DNA from: Rhodospirillales bacterium
GTDB taxonomy: Bacteria; Pseudomonadota; Alphaproteobacteria; Rhodospirillales; Magnetovibrionaceae
Assembly: GCA_024653965.1 (NCBI GenBank)
Contig: JANLGW010000109.1
Coordinates: forward strand, 1 to 62,709
Direction: 5' to 3'
DNA: 62,709 bases
Made by a program: the position numbers and the translations under genes. A model generated the notes under the pieces. The model had not been told where the DNA came from. It saw only the letters and a program-made list of their open reading frames with translations, and ran no database searches. Below, piece by piece: positions 9,558 through 57,164 of this stretch; the first letter of the stretch is position 1, and every line of letters starts with the position of its first letter.

Positions 9558-9671
9558 GACGCCGCTCCTTTTGTCGATTTAAAGCCATCCTATACCGGCG
9601 GGGCGGGGCCGGAGTATGATGGCCGTCACACCTAAAAAGCAGGCGCGCCCTTGCGGAAATGGGCGAACGCG

Positions 9672-9799
9672 CTAGAGTGCGATCGCCATAGATTGAAGCA
9701 TTTTTGCCTCAACCTATGGCGTGAATCGCCCTCTAACACATTGAATAGGGGCGGATTCACGCTTTAGCTGGGTTTCCAGCTAAAGCGATCCGACCCTAG
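9672..9799 (+). repeat. structured dispersed repeat, full copy 1
   Basis: A 128-bp element with four helices. The ends pair imperfectly (9672-9685, CTAGAGTGCGATCG, with 9786-9799, CGATCCGACCCTAG). Inside are hairpin a (9686-9700 with 9706-9719, loop TTTTT), hairpin b (9719-9732 with 9747-9762) and hairpin c (GCTTTAGCTGG 9761-9771 with 9776-9786, loop GTTT). Copy 2 is at 57026-57164 and a partial inverted copy at 54380-54437. No reading frame. It resembles a MITE or large REP-type intergenic element. Confidence 0.85.
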
Positions 9800-9842
9800 G
9801 TTCTTTGGGGAAAAAGCGTGCATTGACGGAGCGATCACTACA

Positions 9843-11295: not shown

Positions 11296-11685
<390 letters not shown>

Positions 11686-11740
11686 TTTTTATTTTTCCCG
11701 TTGGATGGTTCGCTCGCGTCGGGAACGATGGGCTCGCTTT

Positions 11741-53838: not shown

Positions 53839-54210
53839 TTAGTTATCTTTGCCCGTGATGTAAGCGATGATTGCGGCGCGTTCATCGTCTTTTTTGACTT
53901 TGACGGTCATCGCGGTTGGTTTGCCGATGAATTTTTTCGGATCGGCAATCCACTCATTAATGTTTTCAAGGTTCCAGGTGAAGCTGGCTCCCTGTAGAGC
54001 CTTGTAATTCGCGAAGTTGGTGCCGCCAGCTCGGCGGCCGATGATGCCCGCTAACGAAGGGCCGACTTTATGCACGCCCTGCTCCAGTGAATGGCAGGTG
54101 CCGCATTTTTTGTTGAACAGCGTTTCGCCGTCGCTTTCGGCAAATGCCGCGCCGCTGGAAAGGGCGATGGCGGCGGTAATGCTAAGCGCCAGAAATGGGG
54201 GGGTCTTCAT
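53839..54210 (-). CDS. class I cytochrome c
   Basis: 123 residues: signal peptide (LALSITAAIALSSGAAFA) then a c550/c2-type fold with heme site CGTCH, HKVGPSLAGIIGR and the axial Met in GKPTAMTVKVKK. Periplasmic electron carrier. The second cytochrome gene 306 bases upstream is a paralogue of similar length. The promoter region holds a 15-bp tandem repeat. Confidence 0.92.
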   Translation of the reverse strand: MKTPPFLALSITAAIALSSGAAFAESDGETLFNKKCGTCHSLEQGVHKVGPSLAGIIGRRAGGTNFANYKALQGASFTWNLENINEWIADPKKFIGKPTAMTVKVKKDDERAAIIAYITGKDN

Positions 54211-54361: not shown

Positions 54362-54379
54362 GCGATTTTGTGACTTATG

Positions 54380-54437
54380 GGGTGATTCACACAATAGGTT
54401 GAAGCAAAAATGCTTCAACCTATTGTGATCGCAACTC
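54380..54437 (-). repeat. structured dispersed repeat, partial inverted copy 3
   Basis: Contains the perfect hairpin CACAATAGGTTGAAGCA/TGCTTCAACCTATTGTG with loop AAAAA plus the flanking GATCGCAACTCTAA and GGTGATTCAC, which match the left third of the full element read on the minus strand. Hairpins b (mostly) and c and the right end are missing. Confidence 0.75.
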
Positions 54438-54442
54438 TAACG

Positions 54443-54516: not shown

Positions 54517-54912
54517 TTAGTCGTGGCTGGCTTTCAAGTATTCGATGATCGCGGCGCGTTCTTCGGGTTTCTTGATTTTGGCGGACATGGCAGTCTTTTG
54601 AGCGCCAACGACGCCCTCATTGTCCTTCAAGAAGGCCTTCTGATCGGTGATCCAAGCGTCCATCTTCGCATCATCCCAGGAGAAGGAAGCGCCCTTCATG
54701 GCCTGGTACTTGCCATAACCTTCGGCGGTGCCAGCGGCGCGGCCAATAACACCAGCCAACGACGGCCCGATTTTGTGTTCGCCGGCTTTCACCGAGTGGC
54801 ACGATCCGCATTTTTTCTTAAACAGATCTTCACCACCGTCGGCCATGGCGGAACTGCTGATGGTGGCAATGGCGGCGGCAAGGCCAAGCGCCAAAAATTT
54901 TGTGGTCTTCAT
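54517..54912 (-). CDS. class I cytochrome c, paralogue
   Basis: 131 residues from the ATG at 54912 after GGAG; the ATG five codons upstream includes the ribosome site. Signal peptide (FLALGLAAAIATISSSAMA), heme site CGSCH, HKIGPSLAGVIGR, and axial Met in GAQKTAMSAKIKKPEER. Close to its neighbour in layout (SF.W in GASFSWDDAKM against GASFTWNLENI), so the pair arose by duplication. Confidence 0.92.
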   Translation of the reverse strand: MKTTKFLALGLAAAIATISSSAMADGGEDLFKKKCGSCHSVKAGEHKIGPSLAGVIGRAAGTAEGYGKYQAMKGASFSWDDAKMDAWITDQKAFLKDNEGVVGAQKTAMSAKIKKPEERAAIIEYLKASHD

Positions 54913-57025: not shown

Positions 57026-57164
57026 CTAGAGTGCGATCGTAATAGGTTGAAGCATTTTTGCTTCAGCCTATGGCGTGAATCGCCCTCTAATATATTGATA
57101 GGGGCGGATTCACGCTTTAGCTTGGACTACATAAATGATTCCACCTAAAGCGATTCGACCCTAG
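57026..57164 (+). repeat. structured dispersed repeat, full copy 2
   Basis: Same architecture as 9672-9799: left end CTAGAGTGCGATCG (57026-57039), hairpin a with TTTTT loop, hairpin b (GCGTGAATCGCCCTCT to GGGGCGGATTCACGC), hairpin c extended in its loop (CTTTAGCTTGGA to CCACCTAAAG) and right end CGATTCGACCCTAG (57151-57164). 139 bp; differences fall mostly in loops or keep pairing. It lies just before gpt. Confidence 0.85.

Follow-up and report, generated by a model that had tools for sequence, protein, structure and literature searches.

A palindromic repeat that recurs in the 62,709-nucleotide stretch of DNA analyzed here (the window) is a non-autonomous, MITE-like mobile DNA element, as follows from a burst of copies in a related genome, G098, and from two empty sites in relatives that imply duplication of TA. 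The element is approximately 139 bp long; an approximately 10-bp linker separates its two palindromic units, which are inverted relative to each other. It carries no gene, in agreement with the lack of coding potential in the original prediction. Its target, the implied duplication, and its end sequences together suggest that it inserts at YTAR-like sites and is probably moved in trans by an IS427-group (IS5 family) transposase.

Both full copies lay exactly where they had been predicted, and the predicted partial inverted copy was recovered as unit 1 only (Table 1). A pattern describing the unit 1 hairpin gave three matches in the window versus 0.00 expected. The consensus reads YTA-GAGTGCGATCG-stem 1-CGTGAATCGCCCTC-TA, linker, TA-GGGGCGGATTCACG-stem 2-CGATCCGACCC-TAR. 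Both units follow a single design when each is read from its own ends, the second being inverted: a foot is followed by a single mismatch, five base pairs, an inner-strand TCA left unpaired, and a variable stem. Both sides of each unit resemble transposon ends. The outer unit ends lack GANTC and begin, after the TA, with GAGTGCGATCG or GGGTCGGATCG, while the inner ends carry GANTC at base 7 and begin, after the TA, with GAGGGCGATTCACG or GGGGCGGATTCACG. The outermost ends of the element, GAGTGCGATC and GGGTCGGATC, form imperfect terminal inverted repeats that are alike at 7 of 10 positions, as is seen in MITEs. In one copy from another genome (L194 in G081), unit 1 is a perfect palindrome devoid of the TGA bulge and its GANTC. 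Elsewhere in the window, the stretches 53865-53913 and 54543-54591 were 82% alike in one search and are apparently a local paralogue pair, and an RNase P RNA of bacterial class A lies at 11299-11686.

Table 1. Coordinates of the element and its parts in the window
Feature	Position	Strand
Full-length copy, 128 bp: unit 1, linker, and unit 2	9672-9799	+
Unit 1 hairpin, TAGAG ... CTCTA, TA at both ends	9673-9735	+
GANTC (CcrM-type) at unit 1 bulge, inner end	9723-9727	.
Unit 2 hairpin, TAGGG ... CCCTA, inverted relative to unit 1	9746-9798	+
GANTC at unit 2 bulge, inner end	9754-9758	.
Full-length copy, 139 bp	57026-57164	+
Unit 1 hairpin of the 139-bp copy	57027-57089	+
GANTC of unit 1, 139-bp copy, inner end	57077-57081	.
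Unit 2 hairpin of the 139-bp copy	57099-57163	+
GANTC of unit 2, 139-bp copy, inner end	57107-57111	.
Solo unit 1 (half copy); outer-end TA at 54438-54439, GANTC at 54384-54388	~54379-54439	-

The minimum-energy fold of both full window copies was a pair of adjacent hairpins. When compared to 200 dinucleotide shuffles each, the full copies had folding energies with z scores of -9.8 and -7.4, and the half copy scored -8.1 and -9.2 on its two strands; no shuffle folded as well as any window copy. The original prediction had described paired ends enclosing three internal hairpins. Such a four-way fold, having paired ends, an inner hairpin, and the two stems, can form because the four arms are all related to one another, and it came near the centroid of the second copy. 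It was nevertheless rejected as the conserved fold: across 48 copies, each the best match of one of 48 loci (some of them from the same genome), the feet could pair four-way in 675 of 957 cells (70.5%) versus 921 of 957 (96%) when paired within units. The predicted arrangement thus survives as an alternative, with two adjacent hairpins favored.

The source genome (G000; 2.99 Mb in 153 contigs) contains approximately 41 loci of the repeat, 26 of which cover both units, and the three sites originally proposed were therefore too few. The 43 BLAST rows were read as 40 distinct loci, three rows being second matches at or beside listed copies, and one further locus, C88:2244-2311, fell outside these rows. 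At the remaining loci, units of either kind occur alone or in truncated form. The full copies measure 124-156 bp and, as for MITEs, are short, non-coding, and dispersed in large number. When frames of at least 80 codons were called crudely, 25 of the 26 proved intergenic and one overlapped a frame; 14 of the intergenic copies lie between co-oriented frames, six between convergent frames, and five between divergent frames. Five of the source genome's copies have a flanking frame whose stop codon lies within the terminal YTAR, which is expected for a YTAR target. The linker region of one copy (L030, on contig C1) has a direct duplication, with CCCTCTAAATATATTG present twice.

Searching relatives with the consensus by BLAST gave matches in 4 of 60 genomes, including the source genome. 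Four other genomes of the same genus, 59-86% complete, had no match in this search; G011, from another genus of the same family, had 14, and weaker matches were found in G022 and G042. Scanning genome contigs with a pattern identified 34 stretches from Magnetovibrio, Pelagibius, Denitrobaculum, Thalassobaculum, Elstera, Kiloniellaceae, and others, as well as one Acidocella and one Hyphomicrobiales MAG. A covariance model built from 36 aligned copies was positive at E 0.001 in 34 of 199 Rhodospirillales genomes, including the source; at most 16 candidates were scored per genome, making the copy numbers lower bounds. A plasmid search with the consensus and a scan of a genome collection with one exact 20-mer each returned no match. 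One Kiloniellaceae contig (L063, 7220-7488) holds a head-to-tail array of the element with a period of 113 bp, 2.4 copies, and a 98% match, while no tandem array was called in the Pelagibius locus L077.

We then considered whether the conserved fold reflects constraint on DNA or RNA. Compensatory change was evaluated in 36 full copies from two genomes, 24 from the source genome (L029 and L030 were left out) and 12 from G011. Nineteen of 54 pairs had changed on both sides, a value reached in 1 of 500 shuffles. Double-changed cells numbered 106 compared to a shuffled mean of 41.6, and the covariation score was 0.181 compared to 0.093, with none of 500 shuffles as high in either case; sliding the partners reduced the score to 0.053 or less. 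In 200 simulations of unpaired evolution on the maximum-likelihood tree, double-changed cells did not exceed 53 and summed mutual information did not exceed 5.24, versus an observed 7.01. Covariation, which the original prediction had proposed testing, was therefore found beyond both shuffles and a phylogeny-aware null; with the further loci in the genome, this runs counter to the refuting outcome named there, three copies genome-wide with no covariation. The variable stems drift in sequence yet stay self-complementary through compensatory changes. Selection could yield such compensation, as could repair in which one arm of the palindrome serves as template for the other.

Strong hairpins with compensatory change would also be expected of a transcribed structured RNA retained for its fold, such as a terminator, an mRNA stabilizer, or a small RNA, and the five of 26 source copies that start or end in the stop codon of a flanking frame could be read in the same way. 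However, plus-strand stem mismatches were about equally GT (72) and AC (55; P 0.16), and remained so (57 versus 51) after removal of one column pair fixed as GT. The constraint therefore looks like one on DNA, and a wobble-tolerant RNA strand is not indicated. Conservation, moreover, resides in the ends and in the unpaired bulge rather than in the stems: among 25 copies, one from each of 25 other genomes, the TGA/TCA bulge bases were conserved in 22-24, compared to 8-21 at the sixteen 5'-arm positions of stem 1. The copies also occur in all gene orientations, and their presence among genomes is patchy. At the Rfam gathering score, only RNase P reached threshold in the window, and 9640-9830 gave only sub-threshold matches, mostly to miRNA hairpins. 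The intergenic RNA fold put forward as one of two original readings is unsupported by these results, and we regard an RNA function as very improbable.

The other original reading, a MITE-like element, gained support from the dispersed copies, the patchy distribution, the lack of coding capacity, the TA duplication implied at two empty sites, and the amplification seen in G098. This relative carries at least 16 near-identical copies that are only a few bases apart. Twelve are full, one (L209) has a damaged right end, and three (L210-L212) share one internal deletion in unit 2, which measures 29 bp in L210 and L211. All 16 have TA at their left end and 15 have it at their right end, while both the base preceding the left TA and the base following the right TA vary. 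The element has thus undergone recent amplification in G098.

Empty sites were sought by joining the flanks of ten G098 copies and searching 13 genomes of its genus (its own included), and likewise for five sites from g47 against 17 genomes. Most of the 15 queried sites had no match across the junction among the matches listed. Of the ten from G098, alignments covered L198, L202, and L207, as well as L211 with paralogues. At L207, a single ATAG in G216 corresponds to ATA-element-TAG in G098. At L169, a single TTAG in G174 corresponds to the element in G126 (93% identity over 604 query bases). These two clean empty sites with a single TA imply duplication of TA upon insertion at YTAR-like sites, a conclusion drawn from copies in two relatives rather than from those in the window. 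The target-site duplication of a MITE, which the original prediction had proposed looking for, and the YTAR-like target with 2-bp duplication of an IS427 derivative are both seen at L207 and L169, with exceptions at L169, L171, and L173. Other relatives have TTCAG (G224 and G133) or TTAA (G220) at L169; four relatives that align across L173 with 84-92% identity have AT, GT, or AC in place of TA; and one relative (76%) carries TG for TA at L171. L198 and L202 each have a stop codon at the target, and conservation there is essentially limited to one flank.

Two further attempts at empty sites were discarded. The L211 copy lies in a histidine-kinase-like frame, and five paralogous stretches have CA or GA for TA. 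Same-genus synteny was unusable for the window copies, as matches of 100 bases or more were just 63-75% alike. Some G098 copies adjoin what may be other repeats. L170, L199, L205, and L212 share the same or nearly the same flank of about 30 bases, which may be the end of a different repeated element; the arrangement looks as if one element had used the terminal YTAR of the other as its target. L200 and L205 adjoin an IS427-type end, CCCTAATTGAGTACGGACC followed by CTAG.

As to what moves the element, we take DUF4096 (PF13340) transposases to represent the IS427 group of the IS5 family, and IS711 to be a member of this group. Many resolved ends of the group in our data have TA outside and GRGYCYG-like first bases; examples are GGGTCGGGACTCAATT and GAGCCTGACTCAAAAG, each preceded by TA, and the outside dinucleotide is mostly TA or near-TA. 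One such IS (L109, 849 bp) has two overlapping frames, as the group should. IS427-group elements are described as having two overlapping frames, and 10 of the 11 rows of the group considered from Table 2 of the source have 2-bp duplications (PMC3281130). IS711 is reported to duplicate the TA of YTAR and to prefer Bru-RS palindromes (PMC2266754). In three ISs (L107, L160, and L163), the right end agrees with an inner arm of the element in 11 of 12 bases, as with GAGGCTGATTCA in the element compared to GAGCCTGATTCA and GAGGCTGACTCA in ISs. The likeness is confined to the first 7-12 bases. Matches at 10 or more of 12 bases numbered 17 versus a mean of 6.1 and a maximum of 14 in 40 column-permuted controls, a moderate excess in which several of the 17 are internal GTGATTCAA motifs and not termini. 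A GTGATTCAA-like motif recurs shortly upstream of the DUF4096 frame in many elements (L138-L167 and others).

The mobilization scheme suggested by these likenesses is one in which an IS427-group transposase would act in trans on the ends of the element as double-stranded DNA, inserting it at YTAR-like sites with duplication of the TA. Where the target happened to be a stop codon, the duplicated TA would restore the stop and the copy would presumably be harmless. The matching transposase that the original prediction had proposed looking for was not found in the source genome, which yielded no PF13340 or PF01609 transposase; as a MAG of 153 contigs, it may miss IS copies. The carrier G022 also gave no PF13340 match, and G098 gave a single one with no convincing end pair despite recent activity of the element. 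DUF4096 was present in 10 of 12 carrier entries (two of these, G011 and G061, being the same genome, in which just a fragment is present) and in 91 of 199 genomes sampled from the order. By a hand tally that assumes the same 199 genomes for both and ignores kinship, it occurred in 21 of the 34 genomes with the element versus 70 of the 165 without it (one-sided P 0.03, two-sided 0.06), a weak association.

Two other kinds of transposase were weighed against the IS427 group. A REP/BIME (REPIN) moved by a RAYT would depend on a Y1_Tnp enzyme recognizing imperfect hairpins in single-stranded DNA, and the two inverted imperfect hairpins, conserved asymmetric bulge, and variable stems of the element are REPIN-like, as is the head-to-tail array of 2.4 copies of a 113-bp unit in the Kiloniellaceae contig; the source genome even has one Y1_Tnp gene. 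RAYT was nonetheless rejected as the main mobilizer. Y1_Tnp was found in just 8 of 17 carrier entries (again counting G011 and G061, one genome, twice) and is missing from G011 with its 14 or more copies, and 18 Y1_Tnp loci scanned over flanks of approximately 1.5 kb each, or to the contig end, showed isolated short motif matches and no unit. REPs are tagged with GTAG (or CGTC) at one end, as defined in PMC3733652, whereas the ends here are mostly YTAG and CTAR, with 2 of 38 copies beginning GTAG. A TA duplication is also implied at the empty sites. Mobilization by RAYT is accordingly highly unlikely. A MITE of another TA-duplicating family, above all IS630/Tc1-mariner, is a better candidate that we still consider unlikely. 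IS630 elements duplicate TA. There is precedent in RUP, thought to be moved by IS630-Spn1 since their ends are alike (PMC2229807), but the target of our element is YTAR-like and not plain TA, and its GRGYCYG-like first bases and one-ended GANTC fit the IS427-group ends found in the same order.

The distribution of GANTC, the CcrM site (PMC2229807), parallels that in IS427-group ends. The source genome has its own CcrM orthologue (6pbd, E 2.5e-160), and GANTC is depleted in the window, with 85 sites versus 219 expected. In the 36 aligned copies, GANTC stands at base 7 of the inner end in 33 for unit 1 and 34 for unit 2, versus 0 and 1 of 36 for the respective outer ends. The inner-end sites were retained in 20 and 21 of 25 model-found copies, one from each of 25 other genomes; loci from the pattern scan were excluded from these counts because the pattern itself demanded the motif. 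In most units, therefore, GANTC is present at one end and missing from the other, so that the unit looks like an IS427-group element in miniature.

For DUF4096 elements from the order and other carriers, an automatic search of 47 loci gave 38 end pairs, retaining some that are probably spurious (e.g. L144, L145, L151, L152, L154, and L283). GANTC occurred at base 5-8 of the right end in 17 of 38 and of the left end in none (P 1.5e-5, kinship ignored); the right ends of L167 and L281, with GANTC only at base 1, are outside the 17. Among resolved plasmid ISs, right-end GANTC was found in 9 of 11 from Alphaproteobacteria, counting Paracoccus and A. rubi ISs with weak or shifted end pairs, versus 1 of 10 from others (Fisher one-sided ~0.0016, by hand), and left-end GANTC in none of the 21. 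Four plasmid ISs were set aside: Acinetobacter sp. L335, whose best end pair is poor and has its GANTC on the left, Streptomyces L338, Cupriavidus L341, and Pacificitalea L347. The single exception among the non-alphaproteobacterial ISs is ISKpn12 on an E. coli plasmid, the ends of which are alpha-type. Because of this exception and the differing IS clades, the effect of host is confounded with that of IS clade, and the presence of CcrM in the hosts of the plasmid ISs is assumed.

From these sequence patterns, we tentatively raise the possibility, itself rather doubtful, that CcrM gates transposition of alphaproteobacterial IS427-group elements and their palindromic miniatures. Many such ISs have a right end with GANTC 7-8 bases from the terminus and a near-identical left end without it (for example, GGACTC versus GGACCC), and the miniature follows the same rule as a tail-to-tail dimer with both GANTC ends inside and one GANTC end and one GANTC-free end per unit. 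Methylation would inactivate one end or mark freshly replicated DNA. Dam acts likewise on IS10 and IS50. If true, jumps would be tied to passage of the replication fork, and the conserved CcrM sites of CIR-type repeats would be explained.

Alphaproteobacteria have been known for two decades to carry two-armed palindromic repeats with CcrM sites. The element adds empty sites, a fresh burst of copies in one genome, and an end pattern common to a specific transposase group. Whether IS427-group transposases move such repeats, and whether CcrM methylation controls that movement, are now directly testable, and GANTC at one end only suggests a cheap rule for finding such elements. Among the titles and abstracts listed from the open-access literature, we found no description of this two-hairpin family or of CcrM sites in IS427-group ends.

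The nearest known kind is the CIR and Bru-RS palindromic repeats, compared with the element by description. CIR (Chen and Shapiro 2003) are CcrM-associated intergenic repeats of Caulobacter and other Alphaproteobacteria, including Brucella. A 2007 review (PMC2229807) gives them two arms, a linker, TA termini, and a conserved GANTC, lists their TSD as unknown and TIR as absent, treats their mobility as not established, and calls for more information on how they move. Like CIR as portrayed there, the element is intergenic, approximately 110-140 bp long, and free of a transposase, with two long inverted-repeat arms around a linker, TA termini, and conserved GANTC. Unlike CIR, in which one arm has GANTC at its terminal loop or partly inside it, the element has GANTC at the bulge in the stem foot of both arms, and it is therefore not filed as a CIR; the TA duplication implied at two sites and the IS427-group-like ends set it further apart. 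Bru-RS1, Bru-RS2, and the rhizobial RIME resemble it as dispersed palindromic repeats of Alphaproteobacteria, and no mobilizer for them is named in the passages considered. REP/BIME/REPIN sequences also form inverted pairs of imperfect hairpins, and the element has one tandem array, but it lacks a RAYT beside its units and the GTAG/CGTC tag, and has the implied TA duplication. With the IS427 group, the element shares TA outside many of the ends, a YTAR-like target, GRGYCYG-like starts, and often GANTC at base 7 or 8 of one end only; the ISs, however, are autonomous and mostly approximately 800-970 bp long, whereas the element is geneless and has two end-pairs in inverted order.
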